A stretch of 64,000 nucleotides of DNA from Sialis fuliginosa (lineage: Eukaryota; Arthropoda; Insecta; Megaloptera; Sialidae): the NCBI GenBank assembly GCA_961205875.1, contig OY540809.1, forward strand, positions 34,484,267 through 34,548,266, in the 5' to 3' direction. Below, piece after piece: positions 5,832-56,487 of this stretch. The position numbers and the translations under genes are program-made. The stretch's first letter is position 1. The number at the start of each line of letters is the position of its first letter. Below the pieces are notes generated by a model, which saw only the letters and a program-made list of their open reading frames with translations, made no database searches and was not told the DNA's origin.

Positions 5832-6562
5832 CAGTGCCGTCTTTAGGGGAGGGTGAACCAGGGCGCACAATGAGGCATAAGTGACTTTTTTGGTTTAAAT
5901 TAGTGTACAGGCTGTAATTTTTTAGTAAACTTTTTTTAATCTTTAAATTTTTTGTCGATCTGTTAAACCCGATTATGCAAAAAATAGCAAAATATAAAGA
6001 ATGTTAATTTTTTTTTAAATCCAAGAAAAATCGATTATTTGATAGCTGCTAACTAATAAATCCTTATTCAGTAATTAGAAAACCTTTAATAAGGTATTAT
6101 CTGAGATATTAACTAATCAACTTATTTGTTAGTTTATTAATTTTAATTTGTTAATAATAGGAGAAAGAGGTCTCGACGGTCTTAGAGAATTTGATAGTCT
6201 TAAAGTTAACGATGTAAGCTATATTTAAAAAAAAAAGTTGGGGTGTGTAGGATCGCGCCAAGCTGAGATATTAACTATTTAATTTATGTGTTAATGTATC
6301 AATTTTATTTGTTAATAATAGGGGAAGGCGGTCTCGACGGTCTTAGGGCATTTGATAGTCTCAAAATTAATGATGTAAGCTATATTTAAAAAGAAAAACG
6401 TTGAGGTCTGTAGGATTGTGCCAAGCTGAGATATTAATTATTCTTTTTAATTTATCAATTTTAATTAACATTTTCGGTGATTTTTTAAACATTTTTTCAG
6501 AGGGAGTGAGGGCGGAAAAATAAATCTCGCCCAGGGCGCCAGACTTGCTATGGCCGGTTCTG
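5832..6562 (+). mobile_element. Non-autonomous hAT element with internal tandem repeat
   Basis: The ends are CAGTGCCGTCTTTAGG and GGCCGGTTCTG, with perfect 8-bp duplications GGGTTAAC at 5824-5831 and 6563-6570. Inside, a unit of about 160 bp (GGTCTCGACGGTCTTAG to GCCAAGCTGAGATATTAA) is present twice. The same family lies inverted at 11094-11844. Confidence 0.88.
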
Positions 6563-9934: not shown

Positions 9935-10180
9935 TATGTAAAATTGTTCATTAAAAATTAGTAATTTAATCTCTCTGGCTAAGAAATTAAAATAAAAAAT
10001 TTGACGACAACCAAAAAGAAGTTTGTTGCCGTGCCGGGCATTTGCATTAAAGCCCTTCTAGCGCTTCTCCTTATCTTGAAAACTAGAATAAACTGCATTC
10101 TTTAATACTACTGGAAAAACGAAGAAACTGTGGTTTTCACTTAAACTAAAAATATACACCTTAACCACAATAAAACAATA

Positions 10181-10232
10181 TCAGTCGACACGTGTTTCGA
10201 CTTCACATGAAGTCCTCATCAGGAGCCTAACA
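10181..10232 (-). ncRNA. Hammerhead ribozyme-like motif 1
   Basis: On the minus strand: GGCTC, CTGATGA, a stem II hairpin GACTTC/GAAGTC, GAAA, the self-complementary stem III ACACGTGT, then C and GAC. The core order matches a type I hammerhead. One extra G follows CTGATGA. Confidence 0.68.
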
Positions 10233-10417
10233 GTTCCAGACTGATACAGTCTTGGTCAAACCTAATATTTATACTAAAAGGGCTTATCTCGCTTCAATGA
10301 TTCTGACCAATCAACTGCAAGGTCTAGAAAGACTGAAGCTGGATAGGTCCGGTACCACTATTAAAAAAAAAAGTTAGTATAATATTAGGTTTGACCAAGA
10401 CTGTATCAGTCTGGAAC

Positions 10418-10472
10418 TGTTAGGCTCCTGATGAGGACTTCTTGTGAAGTCGAAACACGTGTCGAGTGACAT
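10418..10472 (+). ncRNA. Hammerhead ribozyme-like motif 2
   Basis: CTGATGA is at 10428-10434, stem II GACTTC-TTGT-GAAGTC at 10436-10451, GAAA at 10452-10455, stem III ACAC/GTGT without a loop, and the expected cleavage site GTC ends at 10463. Stem I pairs GCTC (10424-10427) with GAGT (10464-10467). The loop-less stem III implies action as a dimer, as known for hammerheads in Penelope-like elements. G35/G36 ambiguity leaves one bulged G in stem II. Confidence 0.72.
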
Positions 10473-10522
10473 TGTTTTATTGTGGTTAAGGTGTATATTT
10501 TTAGTTTAAGTGCATTCTTTAA

Positions 10523-11072
10523 AGTCGAAAATTGCGCAACTCTTTTTTTAACAACTTCTTTCTTTGGGCATAATTTACCTTTCTTACTGCCTTTTTTTAC
10601 TCTTTTCCACTTCAAATCTCTGCCTATTTGGCGTGTCGGTAGCAATCATACACTTTCAAGGGTTTCGCCCTATACCACAGGACACGTCCCAAGGTACAAC
10701 CAAAAAAAGTCCTGAGGTGTAACCAAACACACTTTTCACAAAATAAATTGTCTAATGTCTAAAAAAAATAATACGATTTAACAACTTCTTGCTATATTGC
10801 TTACTTAAATAATGATGCGACAGTACTACATCAGATAATGTCAGTAATAATGCTTAGCTTGTTTGTATACCATCTGGAAGTTGCAGCAAAATTTTACTTT
10901 CAAGGTATAAGAACTATAATCTGACACTTAAAGCTTCGAACAATGACTGAAACTGAAATAGCTTGGTGAGCAAACAAGGGACAGGGTTGCCAATATAACA
11001 TGTAATTTTGAGAATTACAGCTACAGTGGTTGGATTTCTAGAGCAATTGTCACAAGGTACAAGCCTTTCCCC
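10523..11072 (-). mobile_element. Family P element, copy 1 (truncated)
   Basis: It is the inverted relative of 19326-20105 and ends TACAAGCCTTTCCCCTA. It contains GTCCCAAGGTAC at 10686-10697. It also holds the uninterrupted target site (10905-10945) of the insertion present in the second copy. A Lys-rich minus-strand reading (residues like KKGSKKGKLCPKK) may be a transposase C-terminal remnant. Confidence 0.7.
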
Positions 11073-11093
11073 TACATATTATATGTACCTATA

Positions 11094-11844
11094 CAGTGCC
11101 GGCTTTAGCAAATCTGGCGCCCTGGGGGAGATTTATTTTTCCGCCCCCTCACCCCGTAAAAAAATGTTAAAAAATCACCGAAAATGTTAATTAAAATTGA
11201 TAAATTAGCAAATAAGTTGAATAATTCATATCTCAGCTTGGCGCAATCCTACCGACTCAAACTTTTTTATAAATATAGCTTACATCATTAACTTTAAGTC
11301 TATCAAATGCCCTAAGACCGTTGAGACCTCCTTCCCCTATTATGAACAAATTAAAATTAATAAATTAACAAATAAGTTGAATAATAATAATTCATATCTC
11401 AGCTTGGCGCAATCCTACCGACTCAAACTTTTTTATAAATATAGCTTACATCATTAACTTTAAGTCTATCAAATGCCCTAAGACCGTCGAGACCTCCTTC
11501 CCCTATTATGAACAAATTAAAATTTATAAATCAACAAATAAGTTGATTAGTTAGTATCTCAGCTAATACCTTATTAAAGGTTTTCTGGGCTGCTGAATAA
11601 ATATTTGTTAGTTAGCAGCTATCAAATAATCGATTTTTTTTACAAATTAACATTGTTTATATTTAGCTATATTTTTTGCTTAAACGGGTTTAACAGATCG
11701 ACAAAAAAATGTAAAGATTAGTTTACTCAAAAATTACAGCCTGTACACTGATTTGAACCAAAAAAGTGACTTATGCTCCATTGTGCGCCGCCCCACCTGG
11801 CCTGGCGCCCCGGGCGGTCACCCCCCCCCCCAAAGGCGGTACTG
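11094..11844 (-). mobile_element. Non-autonomous hAT element, inverted relative of 5832-6562
   Basis: The ends are CAGTGCCGGCTTTAGC and GGCGGTACTG. The flanking 8-mers TACCTATA and TATGTATA agree at 6 of 8 positions. Inside, a ~160-bp unit is duplicated almost exactly (11220-11345 and 11395-11520). Confidence 0.8.
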
Positions 11845-19285: not shown

Positions 19286-19560
19286 CAATAATTTAAGTTA
19301 TATTGTATTGTATTTTATTTTATTGTAGGGGAAAGGCTTGTACTTTGGGACAATTGCTCTAGAAATCCAACCACTGTAACTGTAAATCTCAGAATTAAAT
19401 GTTATATTGGTAACCCTGTCCCTTGTTTGCTCACCAAGTTATTTCAGTTTCAGTCATTGTTCGAAGCTTTAAGTGTCAGATTATAACTGGAAAAACGGAG
19501 AAACTGTGGTTTCTAGTCACTTAAACTAAAATATACACCTTAACCACAATAAAACAATGT

Positions 19561-19612
19561 CACTCGACACGTGTTTCGACTTTAAAAGAAGTCCTCATCA
19601 GGAGCCTAACAG
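19561..19612 (-). ncRNA. Hammerhead ribozyme-like motif 3
   Basis: On the minus strand: GGCTC, CTGATGA, a G, stem II GACTT/AAGTC with a slightly larger loop, GAAA, ACACGTGT and C. Core bases are all kept. Confidence 0.66.
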
Positions 19613-19630
19613 TTCCAGACTGTCTGGAAC

Positions 19631-19682
19631 TGTTAGGCTCCTGATGAGGACTTCTTGTGAAGTCGAAACACGTGTCGAGTGA
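19631..19682 (+). ncRNA. Hammerhead ribozyme-like motif 4
   Basis: CTGATGA is at 19641-19647, stem II GACTTC-TTGT-GAAGTC follows, then GAAA and the palindromic stem III ACACGTGT, with GAGT closing stem I. It is identical in the core to motif 2. Confidence 0.7.
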
Positions 19683-20461
19683 CATTGTTTTATTGTGGTT
19701 AAGGTGTATATTTTAGTTTAAGTGTCAGATTATAGTTCTTGTACCTCGAATGTAAAATTTTGCTGCAACTTCCATATCTTATACAAACAAGCTAAGCATT
19801 ATTACTGGTATTATCTGATGTAGTACTGTCGCAGCATTATTTAAGCAAGCAATATATGCAAGAAGTTGTTGAATCGTAATTTTTTTTAGACATTAGAAAA
19901 TTTATTTTGTGAAAAGTGTGCTTGCTTACATCTTAGAACTTTTTTTGGTTGTACCTTGGGACGTGTCCTGTAGTATAGAACGAAACTCTGGGAAGTGTAT
20001 GATTGCTACCGACACGCCAGATAAGCAGAGAATTGAAGTAGAAAAGAGTAAAAAAAGGCAGTAAGAAAGGTAAATTATGCCTAAAGAAAGAAGTTGGTAA
20101 AAAAAGAGTTGTGCAATTTTCGATTTCTTCTTCTGAACCTTATTAATAATAATAATTATGTTTAACATATTTTCATAACAAAAAATATTTACTACTTAGG
20201 TCTTCATTTTCACATCTAAAAAGCTATGATATTCACGCTGTCCCAAGGTAAAACCGTAGGTTGTACCTAGGGACAAAAATCACCTACTCATTAAACAATG
20301 AATAGCGGTGTACGCTTTGGTGATAGCAAAATGATTGTTTGGTAACAGGTGCCTACAGTTATAGCCTCTGCAGGGCTGAAAGATTATTGTATTCGAACGA
20401 AAGATGTCAGTGCAATAATTAAAAAAGTAAAAAATGTCCCAAGGTACAAGCCTTTCCCCTA

Positions 20462-27983: not shown

Positions 27984-29639
27984 AAACATCTGCCAAGTAA
28001 ATGCACAGTGCTTCCTCGTGCTAAATTCACTAAAACCGATTGTGTTCAGATAAATTGCCTGGTTAACCATTTAATTTTTATACAAATTTTACTAAAAAAT
28101 CTTAGTTCGAATTTTTTCTTAAAACACACCTGAATATTTTTTCATATATTTTTAATTTTTTGACAATTTCAATCTAAATCTAAATTTATGCAAATGTCAA
28201 AATGACATTTAAAACGTCAAAGTGACATTTAAAACGCCAAAGTGACATTTAAAACGTTAAAATGACACTTAATATATCCAATCAAATATCAATTTAGAAA
28301 AACAAAACACGAATTTTTAAAATTAATTTAGATAAATCTTTGTAAGGGAATATTTTACAACAAACGTAGTAGACCCATATTATAGGAAATTTAATTCTCT
28401 ACAAAAAATATTCTATAAAATTTTCTCGTAACATGTGTCGTTCTTGAGATATATTGAAAAAATAAATATTTTGGGGTGTCACCCCTCCCCCTTACACACG
28501 ATTTTGATGATTGAAATGGGACCGTCCTCAAACCAAACCCAACCATCCGACCAAGTTTCAATAATATCGGTTCAGTGGTTCATGAGTTATGCGTGTGACA
28601 AGGATTCAGGGGACAGACGGACACACGGATACACGGACACACGGACACACGGACAGACAGACAGACACGGAACGAAAAGTGTTTGTCTTGACGTGAAACG
28701 GATAAATAAATTTAAAATTTTGAAATTGGAGAACTTTTTTTTTGTCTCAATCTGAAACGATCACATAGCTTCTCGTATTGCTTCCTCGCAATATCGAAGA
28801 TACGAGAAGCTATGTGATCGTTTCAGATTGAGACAAAAAAAAAGTTCTCCAATTTCAAAATTTTAAATTTATTTATCCGTTTCACGTCAAGACAAACACT
28901 TTTCGTTCCGTGTCTGTCTGTCTGTCCGTGTGTCCGTGTGTCCGTGTGTCCGTGTGTCCGTGTATCCGTGTGTCCGTCTGTCCCCTGAATCCTTGTCACA
29001 CGCATAACTCATGAACCACTGAACCGATATTATTGAAACTTGGTCGGATGGTTGGGTTTGGTTTGAGGACGGTCCCATTTCAAAATCATCAAAATCGTAT
29101 GTAAGGGGGAGGGGTTACACCCCAAAATATTTATTTTTTCAACATATCTCAAGAACTACACATTTTACGTGAAAATTTTATAGAATCTTTTTTGTAGAGC
29201 ATTAAATTTCCTATAATATGGGTCTACTACGTTTGTTGTAAAATATTCCCTTACAAAGATTTATCTCAATTTATTTTAAAAATTCGTGTTTTGTTTTTCT
29301 AAATTGATATTTGATTGGATATATTAAGTGTCATTTTGACGTTTTAAATGTCACTTTGGCGTTTTAAATGTCACTTTGACGTTTTAAATGTCATTTTGAC
29401 ATTTGCATAAATTAAGATTTAGATTGAAATTGTCAAAAAATTAAAAATATATGAAAAAATATTCAGGTGCGTTTTAAGAAAAAATTCGAACTAAGATTTT
29501 TTAATAAAATTTGTATAAAAATTAAATGGTTAACCAATGCCAGGCAATTTATCTGAACACTATCGGTTTTAGTGAATTTAGCACGAGGAAGCACTGTGCA
29601 TTTACTTGGCAGATGTTTCTTCGATATTGCGAGGAAGCA
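27984..29639. mobile_element. Head-to-head family Z pair forming a 1.6-kb palindrome
   Basis: The arms 27984-28778 and 28800-29618 are nearly identical inverted copies. The 21-base centre (28779-28799) and the outer right border (29619-29639) are exact inverted copies of the family terminus CTTCGATATTGCGAGGAAGC plus A. The left outer border lacks it. The only length difference lies in the CGGACACA run. Confidence 0.9.
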
Positions 29640-37117: not shown

Positions 37118-39631
37118 TTACCGTGTGTGTCCTCTGTTTGTAAACAAATGACATAACTTCTGATTCTCTTTTAATATACTTAAAAGCGAGTCTATTCTAT
37201 CAGTCCTAACACTTTCACTATTCCTGTAAGCATAAGCTCCTACGATTGTTTCTGTCCTCACCTCGTTTATTGAATTCTTTATTAACTTGATACTTGATTT
37301 TGGTATACATTTACAAAGATTCGAATTCTCTCCTTGATAATATATTTGTTCTTCTTCTTCAACAACTTCTATTTTTTCATCATCTCTTACTTCTATATTA
37401 AGCAAACTAGAGAAATTTATGTCTAGAACTTCTGAAGTATCTGAAGATATAGGAATAATCTCGATAGGGGGGTCAATAATGTACACAGACGGTCGTTCAG
37501 TTTTTGAGTTCATGGTTTGCGTTGCCTTTTGGACACCATCTTTCGTCGCTACACTCAATCTCTTTTTAAGAATAGATGTCGTTGATTTTTTCGATGAGAA
37601 TATCTTTGAGCCACGTAAAAGCTCCACTGAGTCATTAGCGGTACTTAATTTAGAAGTTACCATCCCTACTTCAGTATCTATATGTTGTTCTTTATAGAGG
37701 ATGATAGAATCGCGTGCCATACTTAATTTAGAAGTCGTTCTTAAATCAGCATTATCCACTTCTACTACATCTTGATTATCCGGTATATAAAAAAGTTGCA
37801 CCGATTCTTCAACACTCGGCGTTTGATTCAAATTCGCTTTTTTCTTCAATTTAGATTCGATCGAATGTAAGGAACATTTACTCATCGTGCTCTTTTTATC
37901 TATAATCATACTTTTATTAGATTCATCTAACATATCTAGATTTTGTTGACTCTTGTGTGAGCGATAGAATATTAATGAATCTGTTGTACTCAGTAGTCGT
38001 GACATTCTGTTTATATTTGAATTTGGTAGTAATTCAGCTTGTGAGTCTACACTAAAACGTACGCTGGACTGGCGATTTTTTTGATTACTCAGAAAAGTAG
38101 CACTCTTTTGGGTTGTATTTTTCTTTAGTTCTGGTTGCCACAACTCACTATTATCTCTTTCTAATAGATGTGCTATAGCTGTGTCTTCTACGCCATCCTT
38201 TACGTAAATACAGTTATTTAAACAGAAGAATGGTAAATCTTTTGTAGATGGTAATGTCATGTTACTATCCGTAGATTCGCTTATGTTGTCAGGTTGCGTC
38301 AAACCAAATTTTTTTTTATCTTCAGGTACCACCTTTCTGTCTTTTTCTATTGTAAGAGGAATTTTAGATGTTTGGTCTTGGAATTCAACTGGTTCCTCTA
38401 AACTATAATTTTTGTGCTGTAACTGCTCTTGATCATCAATCTCAATACTCATTATACTCATATCATTTGTATTTTTTAAAAGTAGATCACATCTATTTAA
38501 TAAGTACTCGGCTTGCGATGGTATAGCTGTTAAAACAAAATTGATGAATTTCTGGAAACATTTGAAAACATACTCAGTTTGTTGTTTTTTATGTTCTGCG
38601 TCCTTTGATTTGTTATCCACTTCTTCAATTAATTTTGTTACTATCTCGCATTGTTCTAAAGTTTGAGTATTTAACTCATCTAACCTAATCTGAAAATCAT
38701 CTTTCAAGTTACTCATTTCTTGAGAACATCTTTGTCTCTCAATACACAATAAGTACATAATATTTGTAATATTCTTGCATTCTAAATGATGTCGTAATTT
38801 TTGAATACTATCCAGTTTGTCATTATTGACTTCTTCTAATTTATCTTGGTATTTTTTTTGTTCTTCTTCGATATTCATTTTCAACAACAATGCATATTCC
38901 TCTGATTGGTTTCTTAGGTTGATTGTAAACTGATCTGTCAATTGAATAATCTTTGCCTGGATCAATTGTTCGTATTGTTTTTGCATCATTTCTTGTATTT
39001 GCTTGCAAGATTTGTCGATATTTTCTTGTTCTTCAATTTTTAAGTTTTTCTTTAATTCAGTTAACGCCACCGTCAATGAATTAACGTACCTTTCCATGAG
39101 TACTTTGATTCCGTTTTCTAAATCTTCGTGAGCTGCTATTTTGGCCTTATTTAAAGCTTTCCGTAAATCCCTCTGAGCTATGAATTTCAAAAGTTCCTCT
39201 TGTTCCAGTAATGCTTTTTGTTTTTCTTTTTCGTAAACTTCTTGGTACTTTTTCTGAATGATGCAGCCTATCTCTAGTATTCCTTCATGTGACATAGCTT
39301 TAAGGTACTTGCTGGTTAAAGGAGGTTTAAGTCTAACAAGAGGAATCAAAAGGTCACTAGGCGATACCCAGAGATCTAAACCGGCTCCATTTAAAGGTGG
39401 TGTCAGTCCTAAGTCTTCTCTCAATGGTTCTGGTAAAGTCTCGAAGAGAATTTTCGAAAGTTGACTTCCACATCGTTTTTTTATTTCCGTTTGACAAGGA
39501 ATTTTATTTTGTCGTAATAATTCATTGCGACGATAATATGAATTGCTTTTTATCATTTTTAAAAGCGGGAAGATTTTAATTTTATGATTTTGACATGTAA
39601 TTTTGGTTATAATGAAACATGTGGTTTCCAT
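37118..39631 (-). CDS. Uncharacterised 837-residue coiled-coil protein, intronless
   Basis: A single open frame of 837 codons starts at ATG (39631) in a good context (A at -3, G at +4). A second Met at residue 26 also has A at -3 and could be the true start. Residues 120-350 are strongly charged and heptad-like, indicating a long coiled coil. Residues 356-379 (KCFQKFINFVLTAIPSQAEY) form a compact hydrophobic segment. The remainder is polar and probably disordered, with three copies of a short motif S-[KR]-L-S-x3-D-S-[ILV] (residues 544-556, 634-646, 660-672) and an acidic patch at 750-762. There is no signal peptide or membrane segment. The layout recalls C6orf163-type coiled-coil proteins, but this is a weak guess. 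The gene lies antisense inside the first visible hydrolase intron, with a polyadenylation signal 32 bases past the stop. Confidence 0.85.
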   Translation of the reverse strand: METTCFIITKITCQNHKIKIFPLLKMIKSNSYYRRNELLRQNKIPCQTEIKKRCGSQLSKILFETLPEPLREDLGLTPPLNGAGLDLWVSPSDLLIPLVRLKPPLTSKYLKAMSHEGILEIGCIIQKKYQEVYEKEKQKALLEQEELLKFIAQRDLRKALNKAKIAAHEDLENGIKVLMERYVNSLTVALTELKKNLKIEEQENIDKSCKQIQEMMQKQYEQLIQAKIIQLTDQFTINLRNQSEEYALLLKMNIEEEQKKYQDKLEEVNNDKLDSIQKLRHHLECKNITNIMYLLCIERQRCSQEMSNLKDDFQIRLDELNTQTLEQCEIVTKLIEEVDNKSKDAEHKKQQTEYVFKCFQKFINFVLTAIPSQAEYLLNRCDLLLKNTNDMSIMSIEIDDQEQLQHKNYSLEEPVEFQDQTSKIPLTIEKDRKVVPEDKKKFGLTQPDNISESTDSNMTLPSTKDLPFFCLNNCIYVKDGVEDTAIAHLLERDNSELWQPELKKNTTQKSATFLSNQKNRQSSVRFSVDSQAELLPNSNINRMSRLLSTTDSLIFYRSHKSQQNLDMLDESNKSMIIDKKSTMSKCSLHSIESKLKKKANLNQTPSVEESVQLFYIPDNQDVVEVDNADLRTTSKLSMARDSIILYKEQHIDTEVGMVTSKLSTANDSVELLRGSKIFSSKKSTTSILKKRLSVATKDGVQKATQTMNSKTERPSVYIIDPPIEIIPISSDTSEVLDINFSSLLNIEVRDDEKIEVVEEEEQIYYQGENSNLCKCIPKSSIKLIKNSINEVRTETIVGAYAYRNSESVRTDRIDSLLSILKENQKLCHLFTNRGHTR

Positions 39632-55678: not shown

Positions 55679-56487
55679 ACATCTGCCAAGTAAATGCACG
55701 GTGCTTCCTCGTGCTAAATTCACCAAAGGTAGTTAATTTTTGAACAATTTAAATAAAAACCGATAGTGTTTCAGATAAATTACCTGGCATTGGTTAACCA
55801 TTTAATTTTTATACAAATTTTACTAAAAAATCTTAGTTTGAAATTTTTCTTAAGACGCACCTGATTATTTTTTCGTATATTTTTAATTTTTTTGACAATT
55901 TCAATCTAAATTTAAATTTATGCAAACCTCAAAATGACATTTAAAACGCCAAAAAGACATTTAAAACGTAAAAATGACATTTAATATGGCCAAGCAAATA
56001 TCAATTTAGAAAAACAAAACACGAATTTTTAAAATTCATTGTAAGGGAATATTTTACAACAAACGTTGTAGACCCATATTATAGGAAATTTAATGCTCTA
56101 CAAAAAATATTCTATAAAATTTTCACGTAACATTAGTCGTTCTTGAGATATCTTGAAAAAATAAATATTTTGGGGTGTCACCCCTCCCCCTTAGACACGA
56201 TTTCGATGATTTTGAAATGGGACCGTCCTCAAGTCAAACCCAATTATCCGATCAAGTATCAACAATATCGGTTCATGAGTTATGCGTGTGAGAAGGATTT
56301 AGGGGACAGACGGACGGATACTCGGACACACGGACGGACGGACGGACAGACAGACAAACACGGAACGAAAAGTGTTTGTCTTGACGTGAAACGGAAAGAT
56401 CAATTTAAAATTTTGAAATCGGAGAATATTTTTTTTCAATCTAAAACGATCACAAAGCTTCTCGTATCTTTGATATTGCGAGGAAGC
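55679..56487 (+). mobile_element. Family Z element, copy 4
   Basis: It starts ACATCTGCCAAGTAAATG and ends TTGATATTGCGAGGAAGCA. It carries a CGGACGGACGGACAGACAGA run. Confidence 0.78.

Follow-up and report, generated by a model that had tools for sequence, protein, structure and literature searches.

Penelope-like elements (PLEs) form a third class of eukaryotic retroelement (PMC11167929, PMC7761336). In their published layout, inverted pLTRs are combined with one short tail and a target duplication (PMC3846280). According to the same 2013 paper, one of the two inverted pLTRs may carry a tail, and the qualitative fact of a one-sided tail was therefore already known; no statement of a strict one-tail rule for PLEs was found in the literature surveyed. 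Reverse transcription of the anole PLE is reported to start at an AC-rich stem-loop, the tail being the stretch between two start sites (PMC11167929). In vitro, the PAc protein cuts and extends both target strands, and its reverse transcription uses two start sites that bound the tail, with no strand difference in bulk (PMC11167929). The minimal hammerheads of PLEs and Terminons may act as dimers (Cervera and de la Pena 2014, via PMC7761336), and PLEs have been named as candidate movers of non-LTR retrozymes (PMC7229834).

The window analysed here is a stretch of 64,000 nucleotides from Sialis fuliginosa (OY540809.1, positions 34,484,267 to 34,548,266). A preliminary description had reported two divergent hammerhead cores within an inverted element at 10106-10511, bordered by a 12-bp repeat. 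Both cores and the repeat were located, and the arms of this element, el1 (10138-10269 and 10381-10512), form an inverted repeat of 132 nt with 98% complementarity. The features of el1 are listed below (ref, reference coordinates).

10094-10105, no strand: left target-site duplication TGCATTCTTTAA; same 12-mer at 10511-10522
10106-10137, minus strand: PLE tail (stem-loop), 3' end of the left, sense-minus arm; from the tails of other copies, ref +36 to +1
10138-10269, minus strand: left pLTR arm, the 3' UTR of the element; from the inverted repeat and its place after the ORF stop in relatives
10183-10226, minus strand: left hammerhead motif, in which GACT breaks the third pair of stem I
10274-10276, minus strand: TAG stop of the ORF remnant, read from the sequence
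10277-10367, minus strand: ORF 3'-end remnant, C-terminus of the RT/GIY-YIG protein; aligns to the end of the ORF in relative L022, ref -230 to about -139
10368-10373, no strand: junction of two truncated pieces; the left piece ends at ref -230 and the right one starts at ref -139
10374-10512, plus strand: right pLTR arm, inverted, without tail; ref -139 to 0
10424-10467, plus strand: right hammerhead motif, pairing intact; predicted cleavage after C10463
10511-10522, no strand: right target-site duplication TGCATTCTTTAA; same 12-mer at 10094-10105

The el1 'spacer' is the antisense of the last codons of the ORF, which indicates that the element reads on the minus strand. On that strand the order is ORF remnant, stop, pLTR, tail and target duplication; a further pLTR, inverted and without a tail, makes up the right arm. 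The tail, present at the left end only, contains GAAACCACAGTTTC and could form a stem-loop; the right end has none. Judged from its sequence, el1 is a short, dead-end PLE copy that has lost most of its 5' part, has no coding capacity and carries minimal hammerheads in its pLTR; elements of this type are already known. A match to the Rfam family EF0408_EF0409 (42 bits against 440) was rejected and attributed to the long inverted repeat, and a PDB sequence search gave three weak matches (E 0.29-0.38).

The Penelope-like assignment, which the preliminary description had offered as inference, was borne out by a search of the genome (392 Mb, 20 contigs) for relatives, which have an RT/GIY-YIG ORF, a pLTR, a one-sided tail and duplications mostly of 11-13 bp. 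The reverse transcriptase that it had proposed to look for was found: the RT/GIY-YIG ORF of the relatives ends directly upstream of the arm. In these relatives, the arm forms the end of a longer element whose interior codes for the RT and the putative GIY-YIG domain. L022 has a 462-aa frame that reaches the arm and matches RVT_1 (E 1.2e-12, 48.4 bits against a cut-off of 29.6); its candidate C-terminal GIY-YIG domain scores 17.9 bits in Pfam, under the cut-off of 22.6 (E 0.0039), with the motif IYKIN..KSYIGQTRR readable. The related copy L043 (C9:1395809-1400155) has an open frame of 854 aa. Its 3' end is untailed, and the tail stem-loop stands as an inverted palindrome just before the ATG. 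A second family of PLEs, family B (L051-L056, L059, L065, L066), encodes a protein 54% identical to that of family A, to which el1 belongs; one of its loci, L053, has a tandem ORF-pLTR-ORF arrangement.

The 17-mer at the end of the pLTR was found exactly at 1,568 genome sites (781 on one strand, 787 on the other). The hammerhead core, with the four bases of its loop left free, was found at 749 (362 and 387). The reversed control gave 0 in each case. Among the first 100 of the 1,568 17-mer sites listed, neighbours less than 2.5 kb apart were head-to-head in 22 cases, tail-to-tail in one and on the same strand in none. For the first 100 of the 749 cores listed, the corresponding numbers were nine head-to-head and four same-strand pairs, three of the latter lying in one direct array with an exact 176-bp period. 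The head-to-head excess among the listed 17-mers and cores indicates that inverted arms are a common arrangement in this family and that the el1 site is not special in this respect. Inverted pairing is the usual layout of two-ended copies of the family rather than a dedicated regulatory design. Arm-to-arm pairing that masks the ribozyme in a read-through transcript of an inverted copy is plausible.

Outside the window, at C1:39236277-39236839 of this genome, four exact hammerhead cores lie on the same strand with an exact period of 176 bp. Judged from its core positions, this array looks retrozyme-like. A search with the doubled 176-nt pLTR end gave no match there among the 40 scored of 1,249 candidates.

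A second inverted copy was found in the window by the loose core pattern and flank alignment. Its features are as follows.

19468-19734, no strand: second copy, inverted; element at 19486-19724
19468-19485 and 19717-19734, no strand: direct repeat of 18 bp; the first 8 bases also match the pLTR end
19486-19517: tail of the second copy
19518-19620 (minus) and 19622-19724 (plus): arms of the inverted copy
19566-19601 (minus) and 19641-19676 (plus): hammerheads, from the loose core pattern
10648-11076, minus strand: paralogous repeat lacking the insertion, which serves as empty site for the second copy and has a single target at 10915-10932

The flanks of the second copy align to 11076-10915 and 10932-10648, with an overlap of 18 bp and a single copy of the target. 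The stretches 10648-11076 and 19324-20000 are opposite-oriented copies (at least two in the window) of one repeat, 91-95% identical, and one of them was the target of the second insertion. Elsewhere in the window, tandem repeats of 161 and 166 bp were seen at 6101-6443 and 11189-11564. Short arrays of a 20-bp unit like AAACGTCAAAATGACATTTA lie at 1813-1882, 28192-28272, 29324-29404 and 55930-55984, one of them reverse-oriented, and 37118-39631 (minus strand) holds an open frame of 837 aa with no Pfam match at E 0.01.

Tails were counted in 37 two-ended copies, a set that is not a random draw: the nucleotide search contributed 20 and the protein search 15, and the other two are the window copies. 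Exactly one tail was found in 36 of them, none in one (L088) and two in none; short tails of 21 nt (L047) and 14 nt (L061) were counted as tails. If tails were dealt randomly among the ends, this pattern would have a chance of 1.5e-9. The el1 nucleotide query, which also listed 23 of the 37, contains the tail, and the 13 copies found by the protein search only therefore form a fairer subset; 12 of these 13 have one tail (chance 0.006). Four of the nine family B loci examined are two-ended, and all four have one tail. A test based on position only, over the first 18.6 Mb of contig 1, gave 22 pairs, with one exact tail core in 16, none in six and two in none (chance 0.012); the exact core misses mutated tails, as in the pair 107694/109024, which corresponds to L058 and has one tail. 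The same stretch holds 56 unpaired ends, of which 11 are tailed, seven are untailed with an opposite tail core within 204 nt and 38 are neither.

The count excludes duplicate retrievals of a locus and copies in which a single end could be recognised. The dropped one-ended copies comprise those with a tailed end (L013, L017, L019, L020, L046, L050, L078, L086; L017 also has a 16-nt untailed opposite end) and those with an untailed end (L029, L030, L043, L057, L060, L064, L067, L069, L071, L072, L074, L076, L077, L079, L085). L083, with two untailed ends in + then - order, was not counted, and L089 (no pLTR end seen) and L090 (one untailed end) stood outside the end classification.

Duplication lengths, taken as raw best exact flank matches, were 12 bp in 18/37 copies, 11-13 bp in 25/37, 5-8 bp in 7/37 and absent in 1/37, which places 8/37 at 8 bp or less or without a match. 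The truncation points of the two arms differed by more than 10 nt in 34/37. A near-palindromic junction pattern was found at 74 genome sites (reversed control, 1). Among the matches listed, junctions took recurrent forms with 3-nt CTG overlaps, some with copied filler such as GAGCCTAACAG; these overlaps and fillers look like microhomology end-joining.

We consider it likely that el1 is a truncated PLE copy made by target-primed reverse transcription, that two cDNAs, one per cut strand, were end-joined, that its ribozyme works as a dimer and that cleaved RNA was not the template. The target would receive a staggered double cut of roughly 12 bp, and one cDNA would be primed from each cut strand with the element RNA as template. 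A cDNA started beyond the stem-loop would carry the tail and one started before it would be tail-less; both would stop early (230 and 139 nt upstream of the pLTR end in el1), and joining of their free ends would leave the arms head to head. The family, the ends, the duplications, the junctions and the one-tail pattern can be read in the sequences themselves, and we infer priming from both strands, end-joining and the use of one RNA site per cDNA.

Inverted arms would also arise if a single cDNA, or an antisense RNA, primed itself at its end and was copied back, a snap-back route proposed for rotifer Penelope elements with palindromic junctions (PMC3846280). The recurrence of junctions at one spot, with near-equal arms there, is compatible with self-priming, and both arms are truncated at the same point in L084 and at points no more than 3 nt apart in EL2 and L023. 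However, copying a tailed arm back would put a tail at both ends, which was seen in none of the 37 copies, and most arms are unequal, as given above. The target duplications, moreover, call for cuts on both strands, and we judge snap-back to be improbable. The duplications of mostly 11-13 bp, the unequal arms and the one-tail pattern together favour two cDNAs made at two RNA sites, and the start sites used by PAc in vitro, combined with the one-tail pattern, make the two-cDNA account the simplest. The lack of a strand difference in PAc start sites in bulk counts against this account. The long inverted repeats, flanking duplications and many copies would suit a terminal-inverted-repeat DNA transposon (MITE) containing the motif by chance, yet the outer ends are asymmetric, with a tail at one only, internal truncation varies, and longer copies hold RT/GIY-YIG coding sequence in their interior; we give this explanation hardly any weight.

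Two cDNAs primed at two RNA sites might further reflect an obligatorily asymmetric insertion. A protein dimer would sit on one RNA stem-loop, its subunits would start beyond and before it, each on one strand of the ~12-bp cut, and every completed two-ended copy would be one-tailed. The hammerhead would act after or against the start of insertion, because the copies examined show no truncation at the cleavage site. This proposal is tentative, and we place its likelihood slightly below an even chance.

The hammerhead motif itself was identified with a loose core pattern, which matched four times in the window against 0.34 expected; none of 100 shuffles reached four. The matches lie in el1 at 10428-10463 (+) and 10187-10222 (-) and in the second copy at 19566-19601 (-) and 19641-19676 (+). 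Each el1 arm reads CTGATGA, stem II, GAAA, CACGTG and TC, the order given in the preliminary description, and the loopless, self-complementary stem III and the extra G after CTGATGA that it pointed out are real. Its claim of a stem I partner in both arms holds for the right arm (GCTC/GAGT); in the left arm, GACT breaks the third pair. The motif reads as a type I hammerhead of minimal form, in which the core carries an additional nucleotide, stem II has six pairs and stem III is palindromic and lacks a loop. The suggested check against the Rfam type I model (RF00163) recovered both arms at a permissive threshold, with 17.7 and 14.7 bits, below the gathering score of 34, and nothing reached any gathering score in an Rfam scan of the whole window.

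The core is the same in families A and B, as are the presence of an additional nucleotide (G or T) after CTGATGA and the 8-nt palindromic stem III, ACACGTGT; stems I and II differ between them. Cleavage is predicted after GTC in el1 and after GTA in family B. Across six distinct motifs, 6/14 pairs changed on both sides, all six double changes coming from the single comparison of family A with family B, and 97.6% of cells were paired, against 24-36% in slid controls. Two more distant RT families, L091 (35% identical) and L092 (38% identical), were left out of the covariation analysis: they contain CTGANGA..GAAAC strings, but no stem I pairing was seen by eye at the cleavage site, and dimer prediction gave no double hammerhead for either. 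The strings near these RT families, CTGAAGA T ..GAAACGTCGTC in L091 (about 47-1, minus; C8:1595850-1596400) and CTGATGA T ..GAAACGTTGTC in L092 (about 331-290, minus; C8:1591750-1592250), have the same +1 nucleotide.

In fold prediction, the minimum of the monomer was not a hammerhead. For the el1 right arm and for family B, helices I-III of a double hammerhead were all present in the predicted dimer minimum, and the right-arm dimer had two additional pairs within the CTGATGA core; the predicted dimer minimum of the left arms of el1 and of the second copy had no double hammerhead. Dimer energies were unexceptional, 80 and 82 of 300 palindrome-keeping shuffles being as low. The idea that the inverted pair forms a dimer in cis did not hold, because two copies of the same sense are required for a dimeric hammerhead and a single el1 transcript has one sense copy and one complement. 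The working form of the el1 ribozyme is probably a dimer of same-sense copies that pair through the palindromic stem III of 8 nt, either in trans or within a tandem transcript.

The 5' end of cleaved RNA would place an arm end 48 nt from the pLTR end. At the predicted cleavage site (45-51 nt from the pLTR end), 0/74 arm ends were found; nearby, 7/74 were found at 29-41 nt and 1/74 at 52-76 nt. Cleaved RNA was thus seemingly not the template of the copies examined, in agreement with the normal insertion of anole catalytic mutants (PMC11167929).

It is rather unlikely, in our judgement, that the hammerhead-like core is a relic of pLTR sequence without ribozyme activity. Such a reading would suit the score below the Rfam cut-off, the extra core nucleotide, the loopless stem III and the broken stem I of the left arm, and the anole PLE ribozyme is described as uncleaved without protein, with catalytic mutants that leave insertion unaffected (PMC11167929). 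Against it, families A and B show compensatory changes in stems I and II while keeping the same core. PLE hammerheads are also said, in the title of a 2017 paper, to cleave as dimers.

As the genome holds more than 1,500 matching pLTR ends and two related families, and the window an empty site, the insertion pathway of PLEs and the role of their hammerhead can be tested here. No sampled arm is truncated at the cleavage site, which argues against a cleaved template RNA, and the one-tail pattern discriminates between two-strand priming and self-priming; this tail asymmetry is the part worth following.

The elements described here resemble Penelope-type PLEs with GIY-YIG (anole PAc, the rotifer Pen families and Drosophila virilis Penelope) in their ORF for RT and a putative GIY-YIG endonuclease, their pLTR, a tail of 30-40 bp tied to the stem-loop at which reverse transcription starts, inverted pLTRs, target duplications and a hammerhead, as described in PMC11167929 and PMC3846280. 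Compared with these, the two-ended copies sampled here pair one tailed with one untailed end. Their duplications are mostly of 11-13 bp, whereas those given for rotifer copies are of 8-10 bp (PMC3846280). The cleavage site of PAc is reported to lie across the ORF start; here the predicted site falls some 50 nt ahead of the untailed start site; in family B it precedes the tail and the ATG instead of spanning the ORF start. The minimal type I hammerheads of PLEs and Terminons, as described in PMC7761336, have the same core residues, a very short stem III and no evident loop-loop contact; stem III is here the exact 8-nt palindrome common to two families. Animal non-LTR retrozymes are, like el1, small and non-coding with a type I hammerhead (PMC7229834). 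They are described as direct tandem repeats (150-450 bp) with canonical hammerheads, whereas el1 is inverted and retains an ORF remnant, and the second copy is likewise inverted.
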